A stretch of 64,000 nucleotides of DNA from Blakeslea trispora (taxonomy: Eukaryota > Mucoromycota > Mucoromycetes > Mucorales > Choanephoraceae): the NCBI GenBank assembly GCA_025331445.1, contig JAIWNE010000152.1, positions 1 through 64,000 on the forward strand, in the 5' to 3' direction. Under the pieces are notes generated by a model, which saw only the letters and a program-made list of their open reading frames with translations, did no database searches and was not told where the DNA came from. The position numbers and the translations under genes are program-made. The stretch's first letter is position 1, and each line of letters begins with the position of its first letter. This document shows positions 29,983-61,918 of this stretch, in pieces.

Positions 29983-30015
29983 TGGTGAGGCTACTAACTC
30001 GCACCAGAAAGATCA

Positions 30016-34287: not shown

Positions 34288-34569
34288 TCTTTCACACGCG
34301 GTGAAAAATTCGATTAAATTTGGTAAAAATACTGCAGTAAGCTCTATGATTGGCTGAAAACCGTTTTTAAAGACTATTTTATGAATTTTTTTACTTTTTG
34401 CTACTTCAAAAATTGAGAAGTACTTTTACAAGCTCAGAGGCTTAAGTTCTGAGCAATACGATTGGTTGCCCTCTTATTCCTCTGATTTTTTTCGTTTTTT
34501 TTTTGCTAAGTCCTTTTCTACCCAGACACATTTTTTGAAGAAGTCCTTTTACAAATAAAATTTTTTTTA

Positions 34570-37470
34570 TTAATGGTAAGAGTAGATGTTACAGCTATTC
34601 AAAAGCGTGATAGTTCCAAACTTAAACAGATTGACATATAAATTGATTGTAGGAGAGGCAGAGTGTGTATCCAAGATACCCAATGGTTGTAACGCGACAA
34701 GTTCAAACACTTCGTCTGTGGCTTGACATTCTAACAAGCTCTCACTTCTTCTGGCAGCTACCGTGTACTTTCGTACACTCACACCATCTTCTTTAACAAC
34801 ACCAACAAAACGGTTTTCGTACTCATCTTCAAAGACACCCGAAAATCTTGGCTCTAGTTTGCCCTTAACTGGATCGTAGCCTGGGTCAGATAAACCACGA
34901 ACACCAAAAATGGTCTGCATGAATTCGTCTCTATTCGACTTAATCACACTCTCAATGTCTTGACCATACTTCACTCTGTTGCCTTCTTTGTTCACCCAAG
35001 AGCCACCGTCGATAATGTGTCGTAACACTTCTTGCTTGCCAAAACGAACAGCAACATCTTTTGAGGGAGAGTGTCTGTTGGTGTGAAACAACTGCTCTCT
35101 GATAAACTTGTTGTACATTTCACCTTTTTCTGTCTCGTATTGCAATGCACATCCAAAGCGAAGGATATCTGCATGAAGATGATGAAGATAATGGACCTTA
35201 GGCCGAGTTGAAAATGGTGTCTCGTTGTTAGTGATGACATCGAAATTATAAAGAGCTTGAGTAAGCTCTTCAACTGCTTTTATAACTACCATTGCATATT
35301 CTTCAAGGTTTGTTGCTGTCTCACGAATAAACACCAGAGAGCAAAGCTTTGCCAAGCCTTTGAGTGGTTCGTTCAAGAGTAGAACGTTAGCATCAGCTTC
35401 ATTGTCAGTAAATTCTTCTTCAATAATCAATGGCAAGACCTGGATTAACTGCTTGAAATCGCGTCCCACAAAAGAGCCAACATGTCGAAGGTTACCTCGG
35501 AAATTTCTGCTGTAAGAGGTGTTGCCTCTGTTGTCTTGTAACCTTTTGGTTAAGCGAGCTAAACGGTCTTGATTGCCTTTTCCAGCAAGAGTAACCTTCA
35601 CCAGATGTGTCACCAAGTATTTGACAACACGTAGAGGCAAGCAATGCAATACCTCCACTGGTGTGTCGAGAGCGGGATCAAACGATTCAAGATGCAAGAG
35701 ATCTTTCGATCCAGTATTTTTATAGCTGTAATCAGCAGCTGTCAATGTGGAGCCGGGCATCTCACTTTCTATGCGGACATCCTTTCTGTTTTCTTGTGTT
35801 GCTGCCACAACATAATGTGACTTGAACCTTTTTGGACCTGGCTTGTTGAGCGCATCGGGAGTGACATTGCTTTCCAAAAGTGTCTGTCTTTTCTTCTTGC
35901 TTTGCTTCAAAGTGTAGCATTTGCGGCAGAAGTACAAGGTGGTTTGCTGCATGATACCGCAGATGTCAGAGTGGGCTGGATTGTCAGCAGAGATGAACAG
36001 AAGAGGCGCCCTTACTAATACCATTTCATCATAGTGACTAGAATACAACAGGATACCCTTTTCCAATTTCAACAAATCAGCAGCAAGAGAGGGGACAAAA
36101 TGCATTGCATTGAGCCCTTTACTCTTTGGTGCACAGCCAATAAACATAGTGTTCTCGCGACACCCACGTTTCTCCAATGACAGAGCAGCATATGTCATTG
36201 ACCAGCTCTCGTACGGTAAGTGCTGCTTCGACGAACCACCAGATGTATCATCCGTAAAGAGAATGATAGGGGCAATTACCATCTTGTAGAATTGGCCAGG
36301 CCCTTCGGTGTTTGCCACTTTCAATGGATTTTGTCCGAACAGGAGGTGTTTCTGTTCACCTGACAAAGATCGAGGCATGGTATCGGCACCGGGAAGAAGC
36401 GCACAACAGTTGTTTTCAGTCATCATGCTCTTGTTAACAATTGAAACGAGCTGGCTTTGAGCAATCGTAGAGACTTCTGGCAAGAAACCAAAAGAGTTGT
36501 GCATCACCAGAACATAATAGCTGTCAGCTGAATCAACACCATTAATGCGGAAGAAGGATTTGATCAGAAAGAGCAGGTTGGATCTCTCTACCTGAACAAC
36601 ATCTCCTACCCAGAAATCTTTTCCTCCAACGGTAATCTGTGGTGGTTGGAATAAGGCATGTTCCTTCCACTTTGTTCCATTTGCCAAGCTTTTTGATGCA
36701 CCGTGGGTGCGATCTGGAAGTGCGCTGATCTTGGAGCTGATGACAGGATTAGCCATGGACAACTTGAGATGCTCAGAAGGTAAGTTTGAGCTACATTGAC
36801 TCTCTCGCTTTTGTCCCTTGACGACCACGTCATGAGAAGTAGTTGTAGTAGTAATTGAAGGGCCACTGAACTTTTTGTTTGCATCTCCTCTCATGATCAT
36901 GTTGGCCTTTGGCATCTTGAACACCCTTCCTTCTTTTGTTTCTTGGACAGCAATTTCAACTATCTTCTGGACGCCATACAAAAAAGTCTTCAGCTGACTT
37001 CTGGACATCATGCCTACATAGCCATTATAGAGGCACATCATGATCATTGTTTGAGCGTTTCGGAAGGGGCTTCCTCCTGAAACATCATGGTCCCACTCGG
37101 CTTGGCGCTCGGCCATGATCTCGTCCAAGCTGTTTCTGACATCTGTCATATCTTCCTCATCATCTTCGAAATCACTATCTTCTGCACTATCCTCATCCTC
37201 TTCTTCATCAACTTGTGCTTCTTCTGAATCACGTTCGTAATCTCCTTCGTACTCTGCATCAATGGTAGGCGTTTCATCAAAAGAAAAAGAAACGCCACTC
37301 ATGGGTTGAATGTCGTCCTCAGTGCTGTTTCCTTTGTGGGTTTTCTTGATGTGCAAAGTGAGTCTGTGGTTCATGGTATACGACTTTTTGCAACCAAGGT
37401 AAGTACAATCAAATCTTTTACTGGTCTTATGTTTGAGAACAGTGTAGGGTCTGTCGATTGATTTTCCCAT
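34570..37470 (-). CDS. Plavaka transposase, intact, 966 aa
   Basis: Begins at 37470 (MGKSIDRPYT) and runs to 34570 with no stop, frameshift or intron. Domains: C2H2 finger at residues 22-45 (C-X4-C-X12-H-X4-H), an acidic stretch at ~72-110 (many Glu/Asp), then the transposase region with FTDDTSGGSSK at ~405, SADNPAHSDICG at ~494, cysteine pair FCRKCY, and PVEVLHCLPLRVVKYL at ~620. These are hallmark positions of Plavaka within the CACTA/Mirage/Chapaev superfamily. Intact frame, near-perfect terminal repeats and a near-identical second copy at 1-2543 suggest recent activity. It should bind the CACACGCGG termini. Confidence 0.9.
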   Translation of the reverse strand: MGKSIDRPYTVLKHKTSKRFDCTYLGCKKSYTMNHRLTLHIKKTHKGNSTEDDIQPMSGVSFSFDETPTIDAEYEGDYERDSEEAQVDEEEDEDSAEDSDFEDDEEDMTDVRNSLDEIMAERQAEWDHDVSGGSPFRNAQTMIMMCLYNGYVGMMSRSQLKTFLYGVQKIVEIAVQETKEGRVFKMPKANMIMRGDANKKFSGPSITTTTTSHDVVVKGQKRESQCSSNLPSEHLKLSMANPVISSKISALPDRTHGASKSLANGTKWKEHALFQPPQITVGGKDFWVGDVVQVERSNLLFLIKSFFRINGVDSADSYYVLVMHNSFGFLPEVSTIAQSQLVSIVNKSMMTENNCCALLPGADTMPRSLSGEQKHLLFGQNPLKVANTEGPGQFYKMVIAPIILFTDDTSGGSSKQHLPYESWSMTYAALSLEKRGCRENTMFIGCAPKSKGLNAMHFVPSLAADLLKLEKGILLYSSHYDEMVLVRAPLLFISADNPAHSDICGIMQQTTLYFCRKCYTLKQSKKKRQTLLESNVTPDALNKPGPKRFKSHYVVAATQENRKDVRIESEMPGSTLTAADYSYKNTGSKDLLHLESFDPALDTPVEVLHCLPLRVVKYLVTHLVKVTLAGKGNQDRLARLTKRLQDNRGNTSYSRNFRGNLRHVGSFVGRDFKQLIQVLPLIIEEEFTDNEADANVLLLNEPLKGLAKLCSLVFIRETATNLEEYAMVVIKAVEELTQALYNFDVITNNETPFSTRPKVHYLHHLHADILRFGCALQYETEKGEMYNKFIREQLFHTNRHSPSKDVAVRFGKQEVLRHIIDGGSWVNKEGNRVKYGQDIESVIKSNRDEFMQTIFGVRGLSDPGYDPVKGKLEPRFSGVFEDEYENRFVGVVKEDGVSVRKYTVAARRSESLLECQATDEVFELVALQPLGILDTHSASPTINLYVNLFKFGTITLLNSCNIYSYH

Positions 37471-37599
37471 TTTTGAAACTAATTAAGTGAAAAATGTGGT
37501 TGTCAAGTTTCAGAAAGTAAATTCTTTTTATGGTAAGCAGCCGTAAACAAAGCATTTATTTCGTTTTTTGGACTGTCTTTCTAATCCATAATATTTTGT

Positions 37600-37985: not shown

Positions 37986-38477
37986 AGGCATAAGTCAGAT
38001 TAGGCTTAGTTGGCAATTGCAAAGATCGAATTGGTCAAGCAAACGCTATTAGCTCATTCTGGTGCCTGAGAATGATACCCTAGGCTGTAGGTAAGCTATC
38101 AAATCCTGAACTTTTTTAAACCAATAAAATATCTTGTATTTCGTCCAATCAAAATAGTCCTTTAAGTAGTTTTCATATATGGTATAAATATGACTCCAAA
38201 ATTTTGCTGGCACTTTTCTTCAAAAAAATCAAGAAATTTTTCACCGCGTGTGTTAAGCAGTGAAATGATAGAAGAAATGTAAATGGTAATAACTTTATGA
38301 ATATACATCCAATTTTAATTTTGTAAAAAGTTTTGGAAGGTTAGAAAATACATCTAAATATCTGCCAAAAAAACAGCAACTTTCATAGTCAAAATCAAAA
38401 GTTGGAAATTTGACAGCGGTGGACGGCCAGTCCAACCCGGGCGTCCACTGTACAGCGGACCGGCATTTGGTGTAGTG

Positions 38478-38523
38478 TTTTGCTATGTCTTCAATTGCTT
38501 CATCAATATTAATGGGCCTGACC
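38478..38523 (-). repeat. LTR-b fragment (copy 2), cut by CACTA-A
   Basis: Minus strand begins TGTCAGGCC-like (here GGTCA at the tip) and encodes VRPINIDEAIED, matching VRPVKVD and VRPIEVD at the start of LTR-b copies 1 and 3. The remainder is lost at the CACTA-A boundary. AAAT follows at 38524-38527. Confidence 0.65.
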
Positions 38524-38527
38524 AAAT

Positions 38528-39275
38528 TGTCAACACTCAATCCCTTCCTTGTGTTTACCTTGAATGAAATTAATACACTGAGATAGATAGATATATAGGC
38601 AATAGAAGACTGTAAAGACTATTAAATATATATAAAAACAACAAAGAGGTAGAGGTAAAAGCTTTAGGACTTGTTCTTTCAAAAGACAGTGAAATGTATA
38701 TATGAAAAATTAAGAGAGAAAAGATTGTATATTTTTATTACTATATTCAAACAACTACTTTTATAGCTTATTTCTACTAAGCAACCTAACCGACAACAAC
38801 CGTTATGATAGAAATAATAATGTAAAATAATAAAATAATAAAATAATAAAATAATAAAATAATAAAATAATAAAATAATAAAATAATAAAATAATAAAAT
38901 AATAAAATAATAAAATAATAAAATAATAAAATACAGACAACAGTTTAGACAATTGATACAAATAAATTTAAAGATCTAAAAGATCAGATCAGACAAGAAA
39001 AATAGCTAAAATACAGGATCAATAATGAAAAAGGAAAGAACAACACGTTGACAGGATCGGAACACAGAAAGAATAACAACAATTGTCTTGAATCACGAAT
39101 TTACAAGCTCAGACACTTGACAGACCCAAAATGGCAAACCTGAAGTAGAAGCATTCTATCGTACACCCAACAGCATCAACTTCACTACTTCCACAGACAA
39201 GAAGCAAACCACTTCCATACCACTATCCTTTGAGAACGACAAAGCGAGCACCAAAACAAACATAGACATGTGTCA
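38528..39275 (-). repeat. LTR-like unit Y, copy 4
   Basis: TGTCAACACTC..ACATGTGTCA, 748 bp, with AAAT on the left and GAA(T) on the right. Contains the Y landmark AGAAGACTGTAAAGACTAT at ~38605 and a TAAAATAA microsatellite (38823-38932, about 14 units). No gene. Confidence 0.65.
38823..38932. repeat. Microsatellite, 8-bp unit TAAAATAA
   Basis: About 14 near-perfect tandem copies inside unit Y4. A shorter related tract lies in Y3 near 25900. Confidence 0.9.
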
Positions 39276-39278
39276 GAA

Positions 39279-39776
39279 TGTCGCAGCTATCAGCAAAAAT
39301 GAACATAAACAGCCAATAGAGGTTGAGTTTAACCTTCCTCAAATGTACAATCCAAACAAGAAAAGGTTCAAACCGAAAATAGTTAACAAACGAAGAAAGA
39401 AGATGAAGTTGAACTTGTTACGTATAAGGAAGTTGCCTTTAGTAAAAGTCAGCTCTTCATTGTATTCGTCAAGACATAAGAATCAATCAGATCGAAGCAT
39501 ATAATTAATAGTTGCTTTATTCGAGATAGTATAGATGTTTAGTATAGAATAGAATAGATATAAAAAGGCCGTATTTTGGATAATTATAAGCTCTTTATCA
39601 AAGACTTATTATAAAAATACAGGTAAAAGAAAAATAAGAAAATAAATAAAGATCAAAGACTTATTATCAAAATACAGTTGACTACGTCAAGCTTTTCCAG
39701 TGATCTTATTGACTCAAAAGCTCTACTTTAGTCACGTGACCGCGTTTATAAAACATAACAAAATATCAAGACGACA
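39279..39776 (+). repeat. LTR-c, copy 2 (solo LTR, AGAA duplication)
   Basis: 498 bp from TGTCGCAGC to ACGACA, flanked by AGAA at 39275-39278 and 39777-39780. The first ~225 bp are coding in frame with upstream sequence: QPIEVEFNLPQMYNPNKKRF, then KPKIVNKRRKK, stop at 39502-39504. After the stop there are a TATA-like region and a direct repeat (ATCAAAGACTTATTAT..ATACAG) bracketing a GTAA..CAG segment. Copy 1 is at 61919. Confidence 0.8.
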
Positions 39777-39780
39777 AGAA

Positions 39781-40133
39781 TGTCATGGCGATGAATAGGC
39801 ATTACCGTAGCAACGAAATAATTTTGGATTTCGCTGACACTAAGGAAATACCTTTGTTTCTACGCAATTGGAATATCAATAAGAAGCGCAGGTTCAAACC
39901 AAATGCTAGCAGTAATAGACCGGCCAAGAGACAGTGCCGGCCCGGACCAGATAATCTCTGATAAAATATAAATAAGCTGTAATGTTAAGATATGATAGAT
40001 CTTCATCTCTTTAAAATCTTAATATTACAGGTAATAATCTTATTCATCATTTTAAATAAAGTACATCTCTTTAATATTTTAATATTACAGAATCAACAAA
40101 GTAATAAGCTCACTTTCCGACAAGTAGTTGACA
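39781..40133 (+). repeat. LTR-a, copy 2 (solo LTR, AGAA duplication)
   Basis: 353 bp related to the LTRs of Gypsy-3 and flanked by AGAA (39777-39780, 40134-40137). The opening coding segment is uninterrupted, MAMNRHYRSNEIILDF to RNWNINKKRRFKPNASS, stop TGA at ~39959, although the DNA is well diverged from Gypsy-3. The internal direct repeat ending ATTACAG is also kept. Confidence 0.85.
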
Positions 40134-40138
40134 AGAAT

Positions 40139-40868
40139 TGAAAAGTCTAAGATAGTATTTTGAGGGTTTTTATCGGTTTGATAAATGTGGGCGGAATTGA
40201 ATGGGTAAAGGAATGACAGAAGATGAAAGACACCGCCTAAATACAGTAGCAAGAAAAGGACAGCGTATACAACTTCTACCAAGCCTTCTCTTCCTAGCAT
40301 AGTCATATCTACAACTAGTATCCTAAAGAGAGCTTTACACAACGGCAACAACGAACAATTCTTCTATCTTCTGGATCAATCTTCCAAACTACACACCAAT
40401 TATTTAAGAGAAGGAAAAGACTCCGATTTTATTATGATAATTAATTAACTTTTATACTACTTCTAAAGAATTTCTATCTAAGTAATGTTGGAATATAATA
40501 AATAAAGTAAGGTGAAATCTAATATCAGTTTGGTCTAAAATGAATAAAATGGAAGAAGGTGTAATTATCAAACGTAGAAACAGAAGTAAATAAATAATAT
40601 GGAGTGAATTGAAATAGTAACAAAAGTGAGATAGATAATTGAAGGGAAATAGACAACAGAAGGGAACAATAGATATCAGGAATGTAAGCAAAGCCAAAGG
40701 ATATTGAGAGTCAGATAGGTCAGAGCAAAAAGGGTCTTCAGGAACTTCAGGATCTTTCTTACTAATAAAAAGTGACGTAGACAGATAATCCGATTCGCAC
40801 AACTGCCGGAATTGCACCGGACAAAAGAAACTTGGCTTTAGACGATACTATCACTTCTCTACATTTCA
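40139..40868 (-). repeat. LTR-like unit X, copy 1
   Basis: 730 bp, TGAAAAGTC to ACATTTCA, with GAAT at 40135-40138; the right-hand GAAT is split by later insertions. About 95% identical to X2 (50393-51122, also 730 bp) and diverged from X3. On the minus strand two short conserved frames occur: a tail IPAVVRIGLSVYVTFY entering from the start and, further on, MTMLGREGLVEVVYAVLF followed by NSAHIYQTDKNPQ. It has the layout of an LTR carrying the end of a pol frame. Confidence 0.7.
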
Positions 40869-40869
40869 G

Positions 40870-42229
40870 TGACAAAATTATATCCCTTTTGTATGTTTAC
40901 CTTCGATTCGAACAAGTGAAAGAAGATAAAGAACAAACAAAAGTAATGAGATAGAAGACTGTAAGAACTATTACACACAGGGAGAGATACAATAATAATG
41001 ATACGGAATTAACTAGGCACTTGTAAGCTTCGAAAACAGAATTCCAAAGTATAGTTGTGAACAAAATTTAATGTATTAACAGAGAGATAAAAGATTATGG
41101 TCTTTAAAATCAAAAAATATAAAATATAAAAGAAAAATAAAGATATCAACAGTAATCTAAAAATATCCATCTTCTCTTCGAGGGTTAGATCCTCTCGAGA
41201 TCTTAATAAAAAATTTTTAAGTAGATCAATTGGTAAACACCAATAATCGACCAACATCAGCAAATTAAACTTCATCTTCTAACCGAGTCTTGATATAAAT
41301 ATAACTATTTAATTTATCATTTCTAAACTAGGCACAACCTGGGCAATGGACCTGATCTTCTGAAATTAAACAATAAAAATAATTTCCTGTAGTACAACCG
41401 ATCAAAATTTTCCAAGCACAGACCATAGATCTCCGTCAGCTATTAAAAATAATATACCCCAAAATATAACAATAGCATCCAACAATATGGAATACTAACT
41501 TGTCAACCATATTTAGAGTAATACCAAAGCACCATATACCAAGTAACTTCAACCATCCACAACCGGATAAACAACCAAGAAACCAAGGCATAATACATCA
41601 TAACCAATTTAGCAACAGGACAACCGTGAATTAATCACCAACAGAAAAGAACAACCAATAGATAACCAGGTATCAACAACAAGAGAGAATTAACACAATA
41701 ATAGTAATACAACACCGTTTGATGCAATTGAAAGAAACAACAATCAATTCGATAACATAATCATAATAAAGTCAAATAATTAAAATAATGAGAACAACAA
41801 TTACTCAAAACAGAGTAGGAGTTATAGAGGACTAGCCTCTATATCAATATATTACGATAATAAAAGTAAAGTTAAAAGTAATAAAAGATAAAAGTTAAGT
41901 GTAAGAAAAATAAAAAAAAAAGTGTGGAGAAAGTGAAAGAAAAGTATCTATATCCTCTAATAGTAGTAGCCAAGCTTCAGAAAAAATATATACATTTCAA
42001 AAATAAGGTTGCTTGAGGTTTTCAAGGACTGAGTTGCTTGTCAAAAGAGCCTTGCAACTGTAACTGCGATTACATATAATCCCTAATCAATACAGCTCAG
42101 ACTTGCACCAAAATACCTGCTCTATATACACCATGACAAGCACCAAAACAAAGTCTACCCAAGAGTCACATAATTCTATATATGCACATAGAGTACCAAA
42201 AAGCACACAAACAAACCAAACACATGTCA
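40870..42229 (-). repeat. LTR-like unit Y, copy 1 (TCAG duplication)
   Basis: 1360 bp, TGACAAAATTATATCC to ACACATGTCA, flanked by TCAG at 40866-40869 and 42230-42233. Opposite orientation to Y2. Non-coding, AT-rich. Shares GATTCGAACAAGTG and GATAGAAGACTGTAAGA blocks with Y2, Y3 and Y4. Confidence 0.72.
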
Positions 42230-42235
42230 TCAGAA

Positions 42236-42620
42236 TGTCATGGAGACAAATAGGCATTACCATAGCAACCAAATAAGTTTGGATTTTGCCAATACCGAAG
42301 AGATACCTGCGTTTCTACGCAACTGGAATGTGAACAAGAAGCGCATGTTCAAACCCAGACTCAGCAGCAGTAGCCCGGCCAAGAGGCAGCGCCGAACCGG
42401 ACCAGACTTTGCCCCTTAATATAAATAGACTGTAATGTGAGATATTAATGATACCTTATCTTTTAATATCTCCACATTACAGGTAATATCATAGAATTAT
42501 TCTCCATTATAAATAAAGAACATCTTTTAATATCTCCACATTACAGTGATCATATTATATATCAGTTTCACAGGCGTAATAGCTGAATCATAAAAGTCTC
42601 ATACCTACGTGAAACTGACA
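42236..42620 (+). repeat. 5' LTR of Gypsy-3 (LTR-a)
   Basis: TGTCATGGAGACAAATAGG to GAAACTGACA. The first ~184 bp equal the coding end of gag-pol as read in the 3' LTR. TATAAATAG at ~42420 follows that stop and is a plausible promoter TATA. Two copies of TCTTTTAATATCTCCACATT ending in ACAG lie at about 42456-42482 and 42520-42546. Confidence 0.92.
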
Positions 42621-42621
42621 A

Positions 42622-42634
42622 CTGGTAGCATCTC
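42622..42634 (+). other. Primer-binding site of Gypsy-3
   Basis: CTGGTAGCATCTC one base after the LTR, the same as in Gypsy-4. TGGTAGC suggests an initiator-Met-type tRNA primer by comparison with yeast Ty elements. Confidence 0.65.
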
Positions 42635-42834
42635 TGCTTTTTTTTTTCTCTGTCCTCCTCTCTTCTACTCTCCATTTACTGGTTATTGCAAGTCCTTACA
42701 TCTGTGTCAATCTACTTTATCTGACAACGAAAAATTACCGATCATCGTCATCACAAATTTTTCTCTCTTTCTCTCTGTCTCTGTTCTACATCTGTCTTCT
42801 GTCCTATTCTCTGAACTCTGAACTTCTCTCTTAG

Positions 42835-45800
42835 ATGGATAATACGCATCAATCTACCCAAGATTCTACCGTCCATCCTGCTGTTATCGACTTTGTAACT
42901 CAGTTGACCAGGGTGCTCCAATCGCAGACCTCTGATTCGTCCCAAAATACTATCGCTAAGCCTCCATCTATTCAACTCCAACGACCTGAATCTTATGATG
43001 GTAGCCGTAACGTCTGGAAGCTGGATGGTTGGCTTAGGTCAATCGAACGACTAAAGGAATACTACTCTTGGGATGAAGTCCAAACCTTTCGTTTTGCACG
43101 CACGCTTCTCTCTGGTCGCGCAGAGGCATGGTTTTCCAATCAAGAAACGAATGGCACAGGCCCCACTGATTGGTCCTCTTTTAAACAATTGCTAATCATC
43201 ACCTTTCGACCTGCTAATGCAGAGGACATGGTGCGTGATCGTCTGTACAACACTCGCCAAACATCATCAATCAAAGTGTATGTCGATACGTTTATGGACA
43301 TTTCTATGTTGCTCACCTCGTCTGGTCAAACCGCTCAACAAGTAATGGACCGATTCCTGTCTGATATTTTCTTTCGTGGTCTTCGTGACGTGGAACTTGT
43401 TCAACGTATCAGGGGCATAAGTATTGAAAATCGTACTATGGAACGTGTACTCCGTGAAGCCCTTGATTTCGAAGCCTCTCACCACCCATCTCTGCGTTCA
43501 AATTCCCAGAGTCCTACCTATGCTGTCCACACTGGTCGTCCTTCTGGTACTGCTGGTACACTTGTTGAGTCACCCCAAACTGTTGATGATCCGATGGACT
43601 GCGATGTCCTCCATTCACGTCGTCACCAACAAGGTTCTCTCGCTCGTAGTGGAAAAGATACTCGTGCTTCGCGTGGTTCTTCCTTTAACGGTGCATGCCA
43701 TTACTGCTCGCGCAAAGGTCATAAGATTAGTGACTGTCGTACGCGTGCCAAGGACCTGGCAAACTATGAATCAAGAATGAAAGACCGTTATCGTAAGAAT
43801 CAAGGTAACAATCGTGGTTCTTCAGGTGCTGGTCCCAAGTCTTCCTCCTTGAATGCTATTGACTCTCCTATTTCTGAAGTTGATTGTGAGAACACTCATT
43901 CATCTAAGTCTATCTCTCAGAATAAAATAGCTCATTCATCATCTTATTCTACCCCTGTTTAATCGAAATGTCTGAATGATGAAGTCATTCTGACTAAGTC
44001 TGAGCCTAAGCTAAGCTGTGAAAATCAGTTGAAACCTCCGTTTTCTCCTTCTTCTTCTTCTGCGGCTAAAGTGATAGGTTCTGTGAAAGATGTGAAGCAT
44101 CTACCAATTGAACTCAAACCTATTGAGGTGGCAGGTATTCCTTTAGACAAGGATGCGATCGACCACGATCATAATCTGAACCATTTGTCTCTTGCATTAG
44201 ATGCAGTCCATCTTTCGAACTTGAACACGGTTGTGTCGTGTAATCTTCCGCTTTATCATGGTGTAGTCATGTCGTCTTGTGGTTCTCCGTTGGACATACA
44301 TGTACTAATCGACAACGGCGCTAGTGAGAATTATATCTCACCACAAATATCAAAGCTAATAGAAGGTACGCATCAGAATGTTTGTGGACGTGAGGTGGAA
44401 ACTGCTGGAGGTGATACCGCCCCTATTACTGAACGAGTGGTGTTCAACCTCGACTTGCAAGGACACTCCAGTTCAATGTCTGCCTTCGTGTTTGAAACCA
44501 AGTTTGACATCATCTTAGGTCGTTCTTGGCTGAAAGAGCATAAGCCAAAGGTAAACTGGTTAGACGATTCTTGGTCTGTGTCTTGCTGTCTTGACATTGG
44601 TGCTAGCGGTGTCATCTTACCCATTCATGATCACTTGAGTAATGAAATAAAAGCCGATGAGACACCTACTAGTCTTAACTATCTCATATCCAAGAGTCAA
44701 GCCAAGAAGGCGGTGAAAAAAGAGGGTGCCGAGGCCTGTTTTCTTTTCCTGGTTGATGATGCGTCTCTTTCTTCCTCATCTGAAAATGACGATTCATCTT
44801 TTTAGTTTCACTTGCAAAAAAAGTTTCCCTCTGTGTTTTTAGATGCCCTTCCTGGCCTTCCACCTGAAAGAGGTGTACAACATGTTATTAACACAGGCGA
44901 TGCAAAACCACTGAATCGGATGCCGTTTCGTATGAGTCCTGCTGAACTTAATGAACTCAATAAACAATTGAATGAGCTCTTGTCGTTGGGTCTAATACGT
45001 CGTAGTAGTTCTCCGTGGGGGTCACCAGTATTACTTGTAAAAAAGAAGGATGGGTCAATGCGCATGTGCATAGACTATCGCGCTATCAATAGTCTGACCA
45101 AAAGAAACGTCACCCCACTACCCAGGACAGACGAGTGCTTAGACCACCTTCAGGGAGCTTCGTTTTTCACTACATTAGACCTCAAATCTGGTTATCATCA
45201 GATCAGAGTGCAAGATTCAGATATACCTAAAACTGCATTTAACACGCGGTATGGGAAGTTTTAGTTTCTGGTACTCCCTTTTGGCCTGAGCAATGCCCCT
45301 CCTACGTTCCAGTCAATGATGAATCAGGTGCTAGAGGGCTGTATCGATCGTTTCGCCTTGGTATACCTCGATGATATACTGATCTTCAGTAAGACTGAGG
45401 AAGACCATAAGCGTCATGTTGTTGAGGTGTTGAAACGTTTGGAAGATGCAAAACTTATACTCAATGTTAAGAAGTGTACGTTCGCCGCTCGTGAACTTGA
45501 GTTTCTCGGGTTTAAGATTAGTGCCCAGGGTATCTTACCGTCTGACTCTAAGGTAAAAGCTATCCATAACTGGCCTCGTCCCACCAATGTCCAGGAAGTA
45601 AGACAGTTCTTGGGTTTAGCTCAGCATTACCGTAGGTTCTGTCCGAACTTTAGTTCCATAGCGACACCACTAACAGAGCTGACGCATGGTACGGGTGCAA
45701 AGAAGCGCGCTATAATTTGGAATAATAGATGTGAAGAGAGTTTTGCTAAACTTAAGACCTTGCTTACCTCACCTCCTGTTCTTCGTCTGCCGAATCTAGA

Positions 45801-48800
45801 GCTACCCTTTCGCATTGAAACAGATGCCAGTGACTTTGGTGTGGGTGCTGTTTTGCTTCAGCCGGATAATAAGACCAATACTTGGGCTCCAATTGCATAT
45901 GAGTCGCGTAAGCTGTCTAGTGCCGAGCAGAAATTCCCAGCACAAGAGCGTGAACTGATTGCGATCATACATGCCTTACGTACTTGGCGGTGCTTAGTGG
46001 ATGGTTGCAAAGCAGGTTACACTATTCTGTGTGATCATAAGCCTTTGCTGTATTTCCAATCACAGACGAAATCAACTAGCAGGCTTGTGAGGTGGATCGC
46101 TGAGTATGAGCTTTACTCTCCTACTGTGCAGTACAAACCAGGTAAAGAGAACGCAGTGGCCGACGCTTTGTCACGTAGTGCTGAACTGGCGGATCATCCT
46201 CTTGTTGACTCCTTGGAGCCTGAGTTCTTGTATGCCACATGGGATCAATTATCTCCAGAACTTAAAGCAGACTGGCCCTTGTTGTATTTGAAAGAGGAAA
46301 ACATAGACAAGCTGAAATCAAAACAACTAAAAGATCATCTGAAAGCCCAGCGACCTCACTTCTCTGTTCGGCATAATCGAGTATACCGTAAGGTAACTCT
46401 GAAGAGGGGGGAAAAGGACAGTCAAACAACTGAAGTCAAGGAAGTAAAGTTTGTACCCTTCGAAGATAAAGCTGATTGGGTTGAAAAATATCATGTTGGA
46501 TTTGGACATGCTGGTGTGAAAACGATGATACACATGATGGAGTCTCGCTACTGGTGGCCATCTATGAAGAAAGACATTCAAGAATGGTTGAAAACATGTC
46601 CGCAATGTCAAGTGAACAGTCGTCGTACCAAAGCTCACCAAGACGTGATGCATCCGCTGCCGGTTCCGAAAGCCTTTGAACGTTGGCATCTGGACTTTGT
46701 GGGAGAGCTGCCCACCACTATCAATGGAAACAAGTGGTTGCTTACCGCGGTGGATTCGCTCACCAATTGGCCGATAGCCAAAGCAGTACCCGTTGCCTCT
46801 CAAGAGGCAGTTGCAGACTTCATATGCGAAGAGATAGTGATGAGATTCGGTTGCCCTGCTGAAATAGTCACTGACCGTGGCGCAAATTTTACCAGCGGTA
46901 TGGTAGAGGCTTACATGAGACGCGTTGGTGTCAACCACAAGTTGACGTCAGCTTTCCATCCCCGTACTAACAGCAAGGTGGAACGTTACAATGGAACGAT
47001 AAAACAGATGCTAAGAAAGTATGCTAATGGAGCCATCCATAGATGGGATGACTTCGTTCAGGCTGCTTTGTGGGCCACTCGGGTTCGTAAGCACAGTACG
47101 ACTGGTTATTTATCATTTTATTTGGTCTACGGTCGGGAGCCACGCCTTCCAGGAGACGAAGTACAGCCGTGCTTGGATAGATCAGCTAAAGCAGATCCTC
47201 GCACCATCGCTGACTTGACTTCGCGTGAGCTTAAAGAACTAGGCCAGCATAGAGCAGCTGCAGAATTTAGGTTAAAGGCCATTGCTGATAAAGACAAAGA
47301 AAGATGGGACGCTCACATCAAAAAAGTCTCGTTTGAGCTAGGTGACATGGTGATGTTGTCGCACGAAGGTCGATACGGTCTTGAACCTAGGTTCAAAGGG
47401 CCATATATGGTTGTTGCTCATTACCCGGAATATGGTACTTATCGGTTGGAAACAATGTCTGGAGAGCCCCTAAACTCTCTGGTACATGATGACAGACTTA
47501 AGCCAGCGGAAGGTCAAAAGCCTAGTGAGCCATGGTATAATCCCACTGCCTCTCGCCGCATAGTAAGAGAAGCATCCAAGGACTATAGTATACAAGCAGA
47601 TCATATAGACCCAGTTATTCCTACGTACACGTCTATTTCAGATATCAGTGGTTCTACTTTTCTGCCTATGCCTCGCCAAGCCAGCCTATCTCCCCCTCCT
47701 ATCAGTATGCCACCACCACCATTAATAGACCCTGCGACTATTATTACTTCATTACCTTCATCACAAGCTGAGCAGGTCGATTATAGTCATCTACCAGTAC
47801 CACCTGTTCATGAAAATGATGCATTATCAATTTGTAGCAGTCATAATGACATTTTGTCATTACCGGATGAAGACATGGTCTCGTTGTGTTAAAGTGTTGC
47901 AAATGAGGATGATCAACAAGAAGTAAATAATCATGACAAGCAGGACCAAGAAGATAGCATCAAAGACGATGAGAGTTTTCACAGTGCTGCTAGTGATATA
48001 ACCTCTGAACTAAAACAGGTTGCAAGACACACCACTACAGGTACTTCCACTGAAGTCCCGTCGTCTCATCATCTTGAGGTTTGCAATTTACCACCTACAA
48101 ATATTATTGAAATATCCAGCGACAGCAGTTCAACCACGAACGAACAAAATAGTGACCAATTTAGTTCGAGTGATGAAAGCGTACCACCACCCAGTTCCTC
48201 ATCATTAAGTTCAACAACATCGGGTGTAGTATCACCCATGTCAATCTCTCCTACATCTGAAACCAATGAACAAGAATCATTTGTGCTTCTGGATGAACGT
48301 ATCGACATTGCTGACTTTGCACATGATACGGACATTCAAGAGGCGTCTGCAACCAGTGAAATGGAACAAGTGGACCAAAATGATATAGAAGAACAAACAA
48401 ATATGTCTCCATCCATTCCAACACTGCCAACAATTAATATTGTAGGCTCAAATAATCAGGTTGTCCTCATCCAAGGCCAAAGTCAGGCTATAGCTCTCGT
48501 ACAGTCCGACAACCAAGTACACCCTAATGTACCCCCTGCCACAGCTGTGCCGTAGACCAACCCCTCATCTTCTCTTGGCTTGCGTGAGTCAAACTCTGAT
48601 GTCCCAGTTGAAGTGATCGATGTCACCCCAATATCGAGTGCACCACCTCCACCTGCACTATCAGTAACATATTCAAGCCCGCTACTATTGAATGCCTCAC
48701 CTGCCAGTGATGTTTGCTCTCCTCCACCCCCTACACCATCCTTAGGACTTTCTGGTTCTTCTACAGTTGTTCAGAGACGAACAAGCGTTCAAGAGGGGGA

Positions 48801-48987
48801 TAATGTCATGGAGACAAATAGGCATTACCATAGCAACCAAATAAGTTTGGATTTTGCCAATACCGAAGAGATACCTGCGTTTCTACGCAACTGGAATGTG
48901 AACAAGAAGCGCATGTTCAAACCCAGACTCAGCAGCAGTAGTCCGGCCAAGAGGCAGCGCCGAACTGGACCAGACTTTGCCCCTTAA
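42835..48987 (+). pseudogene. Gypsy-3 gag-pol, one frame with five stops, running into the 3' LTR
   Basis: A single frame of 2050 codons without frameshift. Stops at 43960 (TAA), 44803 (TAG), 45262 (TAG, within YGKF.F where Glu is usual), 47890 (TAA) and 48553 (TAG). Gag with knuckle CHYCSRKGHKISDC; protease with LIDNGASENYIS (Asn where Gypsy-4 has Ser); RT with VYLDDILIFS at ~45361; RNase H (ETDASDFGVGAVL); integrase finger (HVGFGHAG..CPQC) and core (HLDFVGELP, TDRGANF, NSKVERYNG), then a GPY/F-like module (KGPYMVVAHYPEYGTYRL). After it comes an unusual ~450-residue Pro/Ser/Thr-rich extension ending in a basic tail, NVNKKRMFKPRLSSSSPAK, encoded inside the 3' LTR; final TAA 48985-48987. ATG at 42835 follows a pyrimidine-rich leader ending CTTAG. 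Confidence 0.92.
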
Positions 48988-50387
48988 TATAAATAGACTG
49001 TAATGTGAGATATTAATGATACCTTATCTTTTAATATCTTCACATTACAGGTAATATCATAGAATTATTCTTCATTTATATAATTAAAAACATAGAGTCG
49101 TTTGTAACTTTTTTTACACGCTTTCTAGTTTCTCAGTCACAAATTAAATTTGAATCTCAGAAAACTGATTAGCCTTAGACAGCAACAACTTACGAGCGTT
49201 AAACCTGCTGGGGGAGGGTCGTCCCTCCCCCAAGCGCGAAGCCATCATTAGTCAGGATCAGTAGAGTAAGCCTTAGCCATCTGGGAGGGGGTTTAAGGGG
49301 GAGGGTTGTCCCTCCCCCTCACGCGAAGCGAGTATGATCCTCTCAACACTCAGTATACTAGAAACATCGCAAGAAAATTGAGTAATGAATCTTCTATGAG
49401 GAATGATTGCGGTTAAATGAGATGTATTTGCTATCATTGTGTTGCTTTGATGTGGATTAGGGGAAGATTTTTTGGCAGTATTAAAACTTAAACTGTGTTA
49501 TTGTAAGGATAAATCAATGCTAAGTCCTTTGCAACTAGAACCTTTATATCTTGCAAATCTTCTTAGGCGAGCGCTAACCCTTCCAAAGAGTTTCAAAGTG
49601 TATTGGAACATACATTTAATATTTGAGCTTCACTTCAGTTATTGCAAACCTTGATCGTACTTTGCTATTAATTAAATTGGTTCCTACACTTTCCAAAATC
49701 AGGACAGTCCATATCATTCGATTGATCTGCTATTTCCTTAGATAATTCGAGTCTTAAGTTTAGATGAGTTTTTATTTTTGAAAGCAAGCATGGATTGTTG
49801 CTTTTGAAAGACTCACTCATATTTGATCCCATCTGACTTAGTTATGAACTAATTATTAGGATAAGCTCAAGTCTTTTTCGCTGCCCGGGATATATGTTTT
49901 TCTTACCAAAGCGACGGTTTAAAATACACGAAGCGCAGCGAAGGGGTTATTTTATACCATAGCGAAGGTTCAAAAATAATATGGGTGGGGCCCCCACATT
50001 GATATTCTCATCGGATTAGTTGGCTTGCGGCAGCACGAGCATGTTTCAAAGCGAAGCGTTCTAAACCATAATGAAGGTAAAGAAAATTAACCAAAGCGCA
50101 GCGGAGGTGCTAATTTTATTACCGCAATGGAGGTTTAGATTGCAAAATGCTTCAAACTAGCAAACATTTATTACGTTTAAGCTGCTGGGTTGGTGGGTGG
50201 TGGGGGTGAGTTGGGGGGATGGTTTGGGGGGGTAAAGCCGCCCTCCGTTTTGCGAAGCAAAACCGGCGGCTGGTTATAAATAAAGAACATCTTTTAATAT
50301 CTCCACATTACAGTGATCATATTATATATCAGTTTCATAGGTAAAATAGCTGAATTATAAAAGTCTCATACCTACGTGAAACTGACA
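48804..50387 (+). repeat. 3' LTR of Gypsy-3, interrupted
   Basis: 48804-49074 (271 bp) plus 50274-50387 (114 bp) add to exactly 385 bp, the 5' LTR length. Polypurine tract AAGAGGGGGATAA immediately precedes. Differences from the 5' LTR are nearly all transitions. Confidence 0.92.
49075..50273 (+). mobile_element. Helitron-like non-autonomous insertion with GC-rich hairpins
   Basis: 1199 bp inserted between A (49074) and T (50274) of the LTR without target duplication. It ends in CTGG immediately after a strong hairpin (GCCGCC..GGCGGC enclosing GTTTTGC-GAA-GCAAAAC, 50237-50270); hairpin plus CTRR end and A/T insertion are Helitron traits. The 5' end (TTTATATAATT) is not the usual TC. Inside are two GGGGGAGGG/CCCTCCCCC hairpins (~49211, ~49299) and several GCGAAGC words. 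No gene apart from a 60-codon frame without known domain. Confidence 0.55.
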
Positions 50388-50392
50388 AGAAT

Positions 50393-51122
50393 TGAAAGGT
50401 TTAGTAAAGGCTTTTGAGGGTTTTTATCGGTTTGATAAATGTGGGCGGAATTGAATGTGTAAAGGAATGACAGAAGATGAAAGACACCGCCTAAACACAG
50501 TAGCAAGAAAAGGACAGCGTATACAACTTCTACCAAGCCTTCTCTTCCTAGCATAGTCATATCTACAACTAGTATCCTAAAGAGAGCTTCACACAGTAAC
50601 AACAACGAACAATTCTACTATCTTCTGGATCAATCTTCCAAACTACACACCAATTATTTAAGAGAAGGAAAAGACTCCGATTTTATTATGATAATTAATT
50701 AACTTTTATACTACTTCTAAAGAATTTCTATCTAAGTAATGTTGGAATATAATAAATAAAGTAAGGTGAAATCTAATATCAGTTTGGTCTAAAACGAATA
50801 AAATGGGAGAAGATGTAATTATCAAACGTAGAAACAGAAGTAAATAAATAATATGGAGTGAATTGAAATAGTAACAAGAGTGAGATAGATAATTGAAGGG
50901 AAATAGACAACAGAAGGGAACAATAGATATCAGGAATGTAAGCAAAGCCAAAGGATATTGAGAGTCAGATAGGTCAGAGCAAAAAGGGTCTTCAGGAACT
51001 TCAGGATCTTTCTTACTAATAAAAAATGACGTAGACAGATAATCCGATTCGCACAACTGCCGGAATTACACCGGACAAAAGAAACTTGGCTTTAGACGAT
51101 ATTATTACTACTCTACATTTCA
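50393..51122 (-). repeat. LTR-like unit X, copy 2 (GAAT duplication)
   Basis: 730 bp, TGAAAGGTT to ACATTTCA, flanked by GAAT at 50389-50392 and GAA(T) from 51123, where the T was displaced by the Y2 insertion. Same length as X1. The conserved minus-strand frames of X1 are present (GREGLVEVVYAVLF; IPAVVRIGLSVYV). Confidence 0.75.
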
Positions 51123-51125
51123 GAA

Positions 51126-52229
51126 TGACGTGTGTCTGATTTGTTGTTGTGTCGCTTTTCGGTACTCTTAAGGTGTCAAGATGCTTGGTATTGTTGGTAT
51201 GATTATGAGAAGGTGTAGAAGTTGATCTGTTGTTATGATGAAGAGTAGCTGTCTTTTGGTGCAAGTCTGGATTGTGTTACTTTGGTTGATAAAGTAATAG
51301 CTAGCTACAGTTGTCGCTGTTTGAAGTGCTCAAGTTGATATCGGTGTTCTGATCTCTCTCTCCTTTGTCTATAATTGTTATATACTCTACATTTTGTTGT
51401 CTTTGAATTGGTAACACACTCTGTCATTGTTTTCGTTCCGTACTTCCTGGTTGTCCTGATTGTACTTTGTTTCTTATTTTTTTTATTGTTTATCTTTATT
51501 TTATTTTTTATTCTGTATTTTATTTATTTTGTATGTTCTCTATATTTTTTTTATTCTTTATTTTCTTTGTTATCTTTAGCTCTGTTGATTATTGTACTAT
51601 CTATATTGGTGTTCCTGATGTTCTGTGGCTATTTTTGTTATTTGAAGTTGGTGTCACTACTAGGTTGATTAGTATCTATTGTTCTCTGATTTACTGGTGT
51701 TACTCTCTTTTTTTGGTCTGATCTGTTGTCAAGAAATTAATTTATGCTTTGAAGTGGCGACCTATTATTTTTGTTATTATGCCAATTGACAGCTTAGTCT
51801 CTATACTTTGGTTACTTCTGTTCACGTTGTCTCTTACTTTGGAAATGCTCTCAAGAAAGTCTGTTAGATCGATGGATCTATTGTTGAAATCACTATTGGA
51901 ATTTATTTTATTGGTGTTTTGTAGAAATTATTGGATTGACTAAGTAATTAGCTGTCTCTTTAAATAGAGTGCTTCGTGCCTCAATTATTAGAATATTTAT
52001 CTTTCATAGATATAACTTTTTCCCAAGTTTTAAAATATACTTACTGTTACCTACTACCTTTAAATTCTGTCTTTAAAGCGTACAAGTGCCTATTGTCTCT
52101 ATATTTTCTTATTGTTCTCCCTGTTGTAATTGATAGTCTTTACAGTCTTCTATCTCCCTTTGTATTTCTTTTTGTTGTTTCACTTGTTCGAATCAAAGGT
52201 AAACATACAGGAGGATAATAAAGTTGTCA
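51126..52229 (+). repeat. LTR-like unit Y, copy 2 (AGAA duplication), nearest to the tRNA
   Basis: 1104 bp, TGACGTGTGTCTG to AAAGTTGTCA, flanked by AGAA at 51122-51125 and 52230-52233. The right AGAA is 5 bp from the tRNA-Asp 5' end at 52239. Very T-rich on the plus strand; short frames there (97 and 84 codons) are Phe/Leu-rich artefacts of this composition. Confidence 0.8.
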
Positions 52230-52238
52230 AGAATGAAG

Positions 52239-52253
52239 TCTTCGGTAGTATAG
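52239..52253 (+). other. Duplicated first 15 nt of tRNA-Asp (LINE target duplication, left copy)
   Basis: TCTTCGGTAGTATAG is identical to the first 15 nt of the tRNA at 53107-53121. The sequence diverges immediately on both sides, as expected for a target duplication made by the LINE between them. Confidence 0.88.
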
Positions 52254-53106
52254 GCAAAAGAGTTTATTTAATAATGACTTGTAAGACTGATCCCCATGGG
52301 GCAAGTGTCTAATCATAAGGGCAAGCTAAAATAAGGATTATTCTAACTGGATCAAAAGGAACAAAAAAATAAACTAGCAAAATAGAAAAAAAGGAAAAAG
52401 AAACCAAGAGAGACAATAAAAAATAAATAGAGAGAGAGCAAAAAAGGGAATCAGACTACACTAAGGTAGTTGTAAAGAGTAGAAGTAACAGGAGGAGCAA
52501 CTTGTTTGTAAAAGACAGGAAGCAACCATTCCAAGAGAGTGAGACCACGGATATCCTGAGAACAGGGACTGAACTCGACATCGGGTAGGCAGATCATGTC
52601 CATGTCCAGCATAATTGAGCAGATGGTAGGCCACCAAGTGGACCAACGCAAAAGAGAGACAGAATGACGCTGGTCATTGGGAGAAGGAGCGGAGGGAAGT
52701 CGAGAGAGTTGGTTCAGCACAAAATCCAAAGGATTTGGCTGAGCATCAACAGCAACACCAAGACGAGAAGCAACAGAGAGACAAGAGAGCAAATGGTTCC
52801 GTGAGGCATGTGGATGACCACAACGACAGGGAACAGGACGAGCAGGTAACCAACCCATCTTCCAACGAAGAAGACGACTACGTTCCCAAACGGACATTGG
52901 CAGCACCAGGGTGGGATCAACACCCAGCACAGGACGACAAGCACGCAAGAGAACCAGACCATCAGGTTTGGCCAAAAGGCCAGCCAGGTAAGCACGACGA
53001 TAACGCCTAATGACAGGCTTGGGATCACCACCAGAGGTAGCAATCCACTGCTGCAAGGAAGAGAAGCGAGGCACAGAGGGAGAGACAAAAGAGTGACAGA
53101 CCAGTT
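52254..53106 (-). mobile_element. 5'-truncated LINE inserted in tRNA-Asp gene
   Basis: 853 bp bounded by the 15-bp duplication. The element reads on the minus strand: its 5' truncation abuts the tRNA at 53106 and its 3' end (AATAAACTCTTTTGC) abuts the left duplication. No poly(A) tail. The 3' untranslated part includes a CCCCATGGGG palindrome at ~52297. Insertion at tRNA position 15/16 left the downstream tRNA copy whole. Confidence 0.85.
52451..53106 (-). pseudogene. LINE ORF2 C-terminal fragment
   Basis: The last ~215 codons of a non-LTR retrotransposon protein, the part after reverse transcriptase. Diagnostic: RLLRWKMGWLPARPVPCRC followed by GHPHASRNHLLSC, that is the RW-x-GWLP box and a C-X-C-X8-H-X4-C zinc finger common near the C-terminus of LINE ORF2 proteins. 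The frame is open to its stop at 52451 and its start is lost by 5' truncation, so no initiation codon should be assigned. Endonuclease and RT domains are absent. A longer antisense frame across it is a shadow. Confidence 0.8.
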
Positions 53107-53178
53107 TCTTCGGTAGTATAGTGGTGAGTATCCCCGCCTGTCACGCGGGAGACCGGGGTTCAATTCCCCGCCGGAGAG
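53107..53178 (+). tRNA. tRNA-Asp (anticodon GTC)
   Basis: A 72-nt cloverleaf: acceptor TCTTCGG pairs with CCGGAGA (one G-U), discriminator G, D arm with A box TAGTATAGTGG (53114-53124), anticodon stem CCCGC/GCGGG with loop CTGTCAC giving GTC at 53140-53142, and T arm with B box GGTTCAATTCC (53157-53167). It closely matches the conserved eukaryotic tRNA-Asp. No intron. CCA is not encoded. A TTTT Pol III terminator follows. It is the only probable host gene here and appears intact although the original 5' flank was displaced by a LINE. Confidence 0.96.
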
Positions 53179-57079: not shown

Positions 57080-57941
57080 AAGCAGACTAAACAATATGTA
57101 TAAATAAATGTGAAAACAAATAATTGTATTTAAACAGTTGATATAAATAATACATAACAAAAAAGGGCGTACTAGTCTTACATTTTTATTTCTTTATATA
57201 TATATATCTTAAAAACATTTAATAAATTAAATTTAAAAAAATGTAATAATAAAGTTCTGCAGGGCTCCTAAGTCTTTTGTTGGAAAAGTCTTGCTTACCT
57301 GCACGCCAATGTACGTTGAAATTTTTATACTTACGACATAAGATTGTTCATTTGTTGAAAACACAAAATATTTTATCCGATTGTTGAAAATTGAGGACTG
57401 CAGCAAGTGGTATCCATGGATACTTAATAGTATATTGTTAATTCATTTTTATATAATTAAGTAGAAAATAAAAAATATAATTTAATAATCAGGATGATAC
57501 AACAGAAGGTTGTCCTTTTTCAACACAAAAAGGTATTAAATTATATTTTTTATTTTCTACTTAATTATATAAAAATGAATTAACAATATACTATTAAGTA
57601 TCCATGGATACCACTTGCTGCAGTCCTCAATTTTCAACAATCGGATAAAATATTTTGTGTTTTCAACAAATGAACAATCTTATGTCGTAAGTATAAAAAT
57701 TTCAACGTACATTGGCGTGCAGGTAAGCAAGACTTTTCCAACAAAAGACTTAGGAGCCCTGCAGAACTTTATTATTACATTTTTTTAAATTTAATTTATT
57801 AAATGTTTTTAAGATATAGATATATAAAGAAATAAAAATGTAAGACTAGTACGCCCTTTTTTATTATGTATTATTTATATCAACTGTTTAAATACGATTA
57901 TTTGTTTTCACATTTATTTATACATATTGTTTAGTCTGCTT
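57080..57941. mobile_element. Foldback element 2 inside CACTA-C
   Basis: Arms of ~400 bp (57080-57483 and 57541-57941), almost perfect, from AAGCAGACTAAACAATATG to its complement, enclosing ~57 bp (includes ACAACAGAAGGTTGT). It would extrude as a very large hairpin. A few base differences between arms (e.g. AATTGTA versus AATCGTA). Non-coding. Confidence 0.85.
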
Positions 57942-61491: not shown

Positions 61492-61495
61492 AAAG

Positions 61496-61914: not shown

Positions 61915-61918
61915 AAAA

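Follow-up and report, generated by a model that had tools for sequence, protein, structure and literature searches.

A window of 64,000 nucleotides (nt) on contig C60 of the 37.2-Mb, 285-contig assembly of Blakeslea trispora contains a stack of long terminal repeat (LTR) units just upstream of a gene for aspartate transfer RNA (tRNA-Asp), together with a truncated long interspersed nuclear element (LINE) that entered the 5' part of the same gene. The features of this locus are listed in Table 1; C and L numbers designate contigs and loci, and LINE-A, LINE-B, Y4, X and similar labels are working names of this analysis or of an earlier note on the same DNA. Read together with their counterparts elsewhere in the genome, these features very probably identify tRNA loci as layered landing sites for two classes of retrotransposon, LTR elements settling upstream of the gene and LINEs in its A box.

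Table 1. The LTR stack and the adjoining tRNA-Asp locus, in positions of the window.
Feature	Position	Strand	Description
Y4	38528..39275	+	Outermost Y-family unit; left end uncertain, start read by eye
c2	39279..39776	+	c-family LTR, 498 base pairs (bp), duplication AGAA
a2	39781..40133	+	Solo LTR of family a, 353 bp, duplication AGAA
X1	40139..40868	+	X-family unit, 730 bp, TGAAA...TTTCA, duplication GAAT
Y1	40870..42229	+	Y-family unit, 1360 bp, duplication TCAG
Gypsy-3	42236..50387	+	Ty3-like element, duplication AGAA
Gypsy-3 5' LTR	42236-42620
Gypsy-3 3' LTR	48804-49093 + 50274-50387		Interrupted
X2	50393..51122	+	X-family unit, duplication GAAT
Y2	51126..52229	-	Y-family unit, 1104 bp, duplication AGAA; last LTR-type insertion
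AGAATGAAG	52230..52238	+	Remnant (9 bp) of the original 5' flank of the tRNA, at which the LTR units inserted
tRNA-Asp nt 1-14 copy	52239..52252	+	Target-site duplication of LINE-A, left copy; no gene
LINE-A, 5'-truncated copy	52253..53106	-	853-854 bp, antisense to the tRNA; remnant coding for the C-terminal part of the reverse transcriptase
Intact tRNA-Asp(GUC)	53107..53178	+	ARAGORN; Rfam RF00005, 60.2 bits; restored through the LINE-A duplication

Base-level reading of 38400-42500 and 49900-52700, with a test of the unit ends, gives seven units bounded by TG...CA that lie end to end from 39279 to 52229. The 4-bp duplications to their left and right match directly in six of the seven; in X1, the right copy of GAAT is divided by Y1, with G before that unit and AAT after it, as the earlier note had predicted for a nested insertion. 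The duplications span about -11 to -5 relative to the first nucleotide of the tRNA, and because they nest, the units were inserted in the order c2, a2, X1, Y1, Gypsy-3, X2 and Y2, each on the tRNA side of its predecessor. The proposal of successive insertions a few bp in front of a tRNA gene, each newcomer separating the gene from the insert before it, was thereby borne out, with seven nested insertions counted. Two details of it were revised. Y4, which had been included among the units bounded by 4-bp duplications, has no exact duplication (AAAT stands before it and GAAT is expected after it), and its likely TG start, read by eye, is at 38528 and not at 38519; and the duplications had all been described as windows of the string that precedes the tRNA, a description that fails for the TCAG of Y1, of which TCA is the end of X1 and only G comes from AGAATGAAG.

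The order of the units away from the tRNA had also been proposed as an age series, in which the age of LTR pairs should fall toward the tRNA. The relative order stands by virtue of the nesting. A molecular age gradient along the stack is unsupported, as Gypsy-3 is the only unit with an LTR pair (97% identity over 288 bp and 96% over 115 bp) and the identities to the nearest copies (c2 99%, a2 96%, X 97%, Y2 99%) are not monotonic with distance. That the block arose by tandem or segmental duplication of one LTR-tRNA unit is suggested by the 97% identity and shared orientation of X1 and X2, and was rejected as extremely improbable: the neighbours are of different families (a2 and Y1 beside X1, Gypsy-3 and Y2 beside X2), every unit has a duplication of its own and these duplications nest, no long homology was seen across unit borders, and the same families are found beside other tRNA genes.

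The position 52239, formerly taken as the 5' end of tRNA-Asp, proved to be the start of a copy of only the first 14-15 nt of that tRNA (TCTTCGGTAGTATA[G]), after which LINE sequence begins. The single tRNA of the window was placed by ARAGORN and Rfam at 53106/53107-53178/9, beyond a LINE that had previously been overlooked. With a tRNA 5' end on both of its sides, this LINE is recognizable as a 5'-truncated insertion with a target-site duplication, through which the intact gene was rebuilt. Base 52253 was given to the LINE because the copy in a tRNA-Gln shows that the LINE-A 3' end starts with GG. On the minus strand the remnant encodes the C-terminal part of a LINE protein that has relatives; the piece in the window alone gave no Pfam match, and a longer open piece of the same family (717 amino acids (aa), L062) matches RVT_1 with E = 2.2e-21. 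Since the LTR units sit upstream of the 14-nt remnant, the LINE-A insertion was most likely the last event of the series in the window.

Gypsy-3 encodes, in Ty3/gypsy order, gag, aspartic protease, reverse transcriptase (RT; RVT_1), RNase H, H2C2 and the integrase core (rve); it is the sole unit of the stack that was tested for the order protease, RT, RNase H, integrase between LTRs, and it has that order. Its RT-RNase H-integrase region has its best match among solved structures in Ty3 (7q5b, E = 1.5e-87), no chromodomain was found in it, and its coding frame contains four internal in-frame stops. The named relatives high among its polymerase matches belong to the Mucorales (Choanephora, Mucor, Rhizopus, Absidia, Lichtheimia and Circinella); one Mucorales-like Ty3 polymerase is filed under a Leuconostoc mesenteroides metagenome-assembled genome, probably a contaminant label. 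A 1.18-kb insertion (49094-50273) lies inside the 3' LTR of Gypsy-3, and another Ty3-like frame, 1033 aa long and matching protease, RT and RNase H, occupies positions 29998-33099 of the window.

Unit a2 is 77% identical to the Gypsy-3 LTR and about 96% identical to paired LTRs on C97 and C141. The 3' ends of 3 of the 20 c-family copies fetched from the genome continue into TGGTAGCATCTC, a primer-site sequence resembling that of Gypsy-3, and this junction identifies the c units as LTRs; copies of both a and c have LTR-primer-site junctions like those of family G. The X and Y units would, judging from their ends, also be LTRs of Ty3-like elements. In seven other elements the paired LTRs are 98.4-100% identical over the aligned stretch, and in three of these (C97, C278 and C18) they are identical over the 275-355 bp aligned, so some members have been active recently. 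The least alike pairs (C7 and C60), too few for a test of age, are buried in stacks with a known tRNA.

The genome was searched with X1, the Gypsy-3 LTR, Y2 and c2 as representatives of the LTR families, which gave at least 37, at least 37, at least 45 and at least 50 hit rows, respectively. All but two weak Gypsy-3 rows (167 of 169, some of them pieces of one copy) were compared with 57 tRNA genes identified by covariance model RF00005, a list that is incomplete because 63 of 1905 candidates were scored. This comparison is the independent test of placement. An LTR match was found within 100 bp upstream of 9 of the 57 tRNAs and downstream of none, where 0.026 would be expected at random for the four families. 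The gap between LTR and tRNA is 10-12 bp in seven of the nine, and the larger gaps on C145 (20 bp) and C32 (54 bp) belong to matches that stop short of the LTR end.

Placement was also counted over 97 outer LTR ends, of which 69 are in loci (12 of them in the window) and 28 are from fetched flanks; the flanks comprised 20 of the 23 complete c-family 3' ends without a locus and 11 flanks of seven Y copies, a twelfth Y region (L121) being unused since it lies inside a unit, and inner LTR ends (15 in loci, 3 among the fetched flanks) were set aside. The tRNA 5' strings for this count were drawn from sequences already read, so the count is not independent of the reading. A tRNA-like 5' end stands at 9-12 bp from 19 of the 97 ends. 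For 59 of the ends an LTR-like TG end is directly adjacent, at +3 to +6, as against 9.7-10.7% of control positions; with the window left out, abutting ends number 36 of 57 in the loci. Two ends are in both groups, one of them being the end of Y2 in the window, where the TG is flank sequence. Of the promoter patterns searched for, a B-box pattern (269 matches versus 127 in a backward control, with the first 100 places listed) was not used for counting, and an A-box pattern, not enriched over its control (36 versus 51), served only to locate the tRNA-Asp genes on C7 and C19, both of which were then read.

LTRs of these families were found in place at genes for tRNA-Asp, Val, Gln, Met, His, Glu, Cys, Thr, Ala, Leu and Arg, and further at Gly, Ile and Pro (Val, Gly, Ile and Pro were assigned by eye). 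They occur in both orientations relative to the tRNA, and their spacing upstream of the mature tRNA 5' end is 8-12 bp across more than 10 isotypes; by eye, X stands 10 bp from a tRNA-Ala and 8 bp from four tRNA-Leu genes, and family a stands 10 bp from a tRNA-Arg, with the LTR end inferred in that case. Two divergent tRNA-Leu genes (L019/L021, C182:1184-2152) each have an X-like unit about 8 bp upstream. A second stack, at a tRNA-Asp on C7, consists of a c-like unit, three X units and one Gypsy element; two of the X units are flanked on both sides by AATC, which also starts the flank beside the tRNA-Asp.

Ty3-like targeting of RNA polymerase III (Pol III) starts at tRNA genes, as the earlier note had proposed for the window, is thus well supported by the upstream placement and the 8-12 bp spacing, and the genome-wide mapping that it called for agrees for X, G/a, c and Y, on lists of hits and tRNAs that are both incomplete. 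It has been weighed against two other accounts of the same placement. LTR elements might insert anywhere and survive only near tRNA genes, through selection in a compact genome, and the genome is indeed small, with solo or degenerate copies dominating the stack; we consider this very unlikely, because it leaves unexplained the spacing of 9-12 bp and the nine upstream matches versus none downstream, and because the LTR at tRNA-Cys on C278 is from a pair that is identical over 318 aligned bp. Alternatively, the integrases might recognize a short DNA motif such as AGAAT, and not the Pol III complex, in keeping with the reuse of the same few bases within the stack. At other tRNAs the flanks differ (AATC at tRNA-Asp on C7; AAAA, AAAT and CGAA elsewhere) and it is the distance that is conserved, which makes recognition of such a motif distinctly unlikely.

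Some observations weigh against targeting of Pol III starts by these families or limit its scope. Neither a tRNA-like 5' end nor an abutting LTR was found at 21 of the 97 outer ends, about 7 of which look by eye like decayed or shifted abutting ends, and the 97 ends are not independent of one another, as both sides of one junction may count. No match of the four families lies within 100 bp upstream of 48 of the 57 listed tRNAs, and the two 5S genes found, both on C144, share that contig with none of the 167 LTR rows. The X and Y units, with their TG...CA ends and 4-bp duplications, are present as solo units only, no internal region having been found for them.

Two further sets of repeats in the window were noted. 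Diverged X-like and c-like LTR pieces lie near each other at 60716-62382, perhaps as an older stack besides the first. At 38253-38480, a repeat measuring at most about 228 bp recurs at ten other fetched loci (L055, L012, L003, L032, L069, L063/L085, L049, L041, L013 and L009) with 91-96% identity over 156-229 bp, and may represent one more small element with a tendency to collect at tRNA loci.

LINE-A is represented in the genome by 25 hit rows, and its 3' junction was readable in 21 copies. The junction lies at nt 14 of a tRNA or tRNA-like 5' end in 17 of these, the flanks being tRNA-Asp in 4, Val-type in 11, tRNA-Gln in 1 and, on C73, a tRNA-like sequence without an ARAGORN call. The Val assignment is based on C25, where the downstream gene was partly read; the other Val-type flanks share the first 14 nt with at most one difference. 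In the standard numbering of tRNA, T8 and A14 are conserved positions, and entry after nt 14 is what we take to be entry after A14. Both junctions were read in six copies, with a duplication of tRNA nt 1-14 in five (C60, C7, C19, C25 and C277, ambiguous by a few A in the last) and a duplication one base longer on C73. A full length of about 5.35 kb was obtained from the distance to tRNA-Asp (C7, C19), tRNA-Gln (C277) and tRNA-Val (C25), C60, C73 and C213 carry 5'-truncated copies, and the target-site duplications read for the family are of 14-15 bp. In a comparison with 42 of 85 domain rows, 13 of 22 LINE-A copies have a PF14529 endonuclease domain at a near-constant offset, some 3.1 kb inward of the 3' end; six PF14529 matches at LINE-A positions (C112, C149, C190, C277, C25 and C270) lie in a 1230-aa open frame, and several close homologues carry PF14529 or PF03372.

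A second family, LINE-B, was first seen in two c-family flanks (L095 and L108) where a tRNA A box leads into a different tail. Its junction pattern, CTCAG joined to GTNAAAGATTT, occurs 18 times in the genome and not once when read backwards, and all 18 junctions extend to TRGCTCAG, the A box. An endonuclease domain was found on the opposite strand, 2.8-3.8 kb inward, at 15 of the 18 (again relative to 42 of 85 domain rows), and a listed tRNA on the same strand lies 4.6-5.3 kb away at 5 of the 18; the distance to the tRNA gives a length of about 4.75 kb. In the single copy with both junctions read, on C275, the duplication is tRNA nt 1-14, with possibly one base more at either side. LINE-A and LINE-B are probably related, judging from their tails, which, with the ambiguous G counted as LINE sequence, begin alike with GG(C/T)AAAAGA.

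The case for entry of LINEs into the A box has its own counterweights. Four of the 21 LINE-A junctions are off nt 14 (just upstream of a tRNA-His on C213, 8-9 bp past an LTR-like end on C278 and C27, and in an 86% copy on C239), so the targeting is preferential, and the identical LINE-A flanks on C188 and C69 may represent one event. The search pattern for LINE-B contained CTCAG, so that the agreement of all 18 junctions concerns only three added letters, and 13 of the 18 have no tRNA at the expected distance in the incomplete tRNA list. As to how the site is chosen, it is quite conceivable, if somewhat short of an even chance, that the LINEs cut by DNA sequence alone (TRTA/R for LINE-A and CTCA/G for LINE-B), without a Pol III factor. 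Each family favours one A-box spelling, and the off-target LINE-A junctions on C213, C278, C27 and C239 end in TGTA, TATA or ATAG, three of the four keeping TRTA, which favours a sequence component. A motif of 4-5 bases is nevertheless too common in 37 Mb for 17 of 21 junctions to fall at tRNA nt 14, so further sequence or a bound factor must add specificity, and three of the four off-target sites adjoin, by eye, a tRNA or an LTR-like end.

The layered landing of both classes at tRNA loci was examined for its order of events. An LTR lies upstream of the tRNA fragment on C60, C19, C112 and C49, where insertion of the LTR most likely preceded that of the LINE. On C271, the spacer in front of tRNA-Met matches the LINE-B 5' end at C275 and C239 identically, and in this spacer, 12 bp from the gene, sits a family-a LTR; there the LTR followed the LINE, and a LINE insertion can accordingly renew the target of LTR elements.

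A model was built on the positions, duplications, nesting and tRNA rebuilding read at these loci. At least four LTR families (G/a, c, X and Y) settle 8-12 bp ahead of the mature 5' end of the tRNA, with a stagger of 4 bp. As every insertion spares the few bp nearest the gene, the following element lands between the gene and its predecessor, and stacks grow. Tethering of the integrase to TFIIIB/Pol III, as for Ty3, is the likely cause suggested by position and homology. LINE-A and LINE-B insert in antisense orientation into the A boxes of different tRNA genes, past nt 14. The duplicated nt 1-14 rebuild an intact tRNA downstream, whose new 5' flank is the LINE 5' end, and LTR elements can reuse that flank. 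The LINE insertions would proceed by target-primed reverse transcription, the tRNA-sense strand being nicked between nt 14 and 15 and the opposite strand at the mature 5' end. In its fullest form, which we consider probable, two sibling LINE families with apurinic/apyrimidinic (AP) endonucleases enter after A14 and share out the tRNAs, one family taking those with TRTA in the A box and the other those with CTCA; at least four LTR families, which are Ty3-like as far as they were tested, load just upstream, and tRNA loci become self-renewing, stratified insertion records with LINE and LTR layers readable in order.

Comparisons with known systems were drawn from the available portions of the papers cited. 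Ty3-like targeting of tRNA genes is known in several yeasts and dictyostelids (PMC5911963, PMC5006619, PMC4600332), and the Ty3/gypsy elements described as doing so include Ty3 of Saccharomyces cerevisiae, Tj1 of Schizosaccharomyces japonicus, Tyl3, Tyl6 and Ylt1 of Yarrowia, and Beta and Tca8 of Candida (PMC5911963), all of which resemble the present units in a Ty3/gypsy-type insertion at or just upstream of the tRNA Pol III start. The sites of Tj1, 5-11 bp upstream of the mature 5' end, are close to the 8-12 bp found here, but Tj1 has a 5-bp duplication and one orientation, whereas the duplications here are of 4 bp and both orientations occur (PMC4600332). What sets the B. trispora case apart from the Ty3 group is the use of one site by at least four LTR families, with repeated stacking, in a host belonging to the Mucorales. 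Within that order, Ma et al. 2009 (PMC2699053) reported that Ty3/gypsy-like LTR elements of Rhizopus oryzae strongly prefer certain insertion sites, 'often co-localizing with tRNA genes', so the statement of the earlier note that no equivalent was known from early-diverging fungi was too strong. Those elements are likewise Ty3-like and associated with tRNA genes; the text of that report available here gives co-localisation only, and the spacing, duplications, stacking and LINEs come from this analysis.

The nearest parallel to an LTR and LINE pair in one organism group is found in dictyostelids, where the LTR element DGLT-A lies about 15 bp and the non-LTR element NLTR-A 2-6 bp upstream of tRNA genes (PMC5006619). 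NLTR-A stays outside the gene, and in it an RNase H domain follows RT (PMC5006619), whereas LINE-A and LINE-B insert inside the A box; with 17 of 21 junctions in the A box, LINE-A does not conform to the TRE5/NLTR-A mode, in which elements land beyond the tRNA coding sequence. Non-LTR families near the NeSL clade are specific for tRNA genes as well (NeSL-1_TV for tRNA-Pro, LIN15_SM for tRNA-Arg, LIN25_SM for tRNA-Glu; PMC4640811), but they are kin of a clade with a restriction-like endonuclease and use one tRNA each, while LINE-A and LINE-B have an AP-type endonuclease domain, which separates them from the NeSL type, and use several tRNA types at one shared position. The zebrafish non-LTR element Dewa is also tied to tRNA loci, in a tRNA-Leu spacer and not inside the gene (PMC3706591). 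Dada DNA transposons do insert inside tRNA genes, several families of them in the A box at nt 8-13, at sites (for example TAGCTC then AG) close to that of the LINEs, but they are DDE DNA transposons with 6-7 bp duplications and not retrotransposons (PMC3706591, PMC8869645). Among the matches listed from a mostly open-access literature, neither an AP-endonuclease LINE that enters the A box of several tRNAs nor a report of LINEs in fungal tRNA A boxes was found. The LINE pair, a variant of the target-specific non-LTR retrotransposon, is the more novel part of these results, and the LTR stack is a new case of a known behaviour.

With these data, the co-localisation known from Mucorales becomes a rule at the level of base pairs, in a lineage distant from yeast and with several LTR families sharing one placement. 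Repeated stacking provides a relative chronology for each locus. The LINEs exemplify a strategy of insertion inside a Pol III promoter that leaves the target gene whole, and their cut after nt 14 poses the question of whether the endonuclease reads the A box itself or the bound Pol III machinery.

Other repeats of the window include a 2.35-kb inverted repeat (1-2350 and 34487-36836), the arms of which are 98% complementary and 32 kb apart. One of these arms is partly overlapped by a 970-aa open frame (34570-37482) without a Pfam match. A near-perfect hairpin at 57080-57941 has 408-bp arms that are 99% complementary, separated by a 46-bp spacer.

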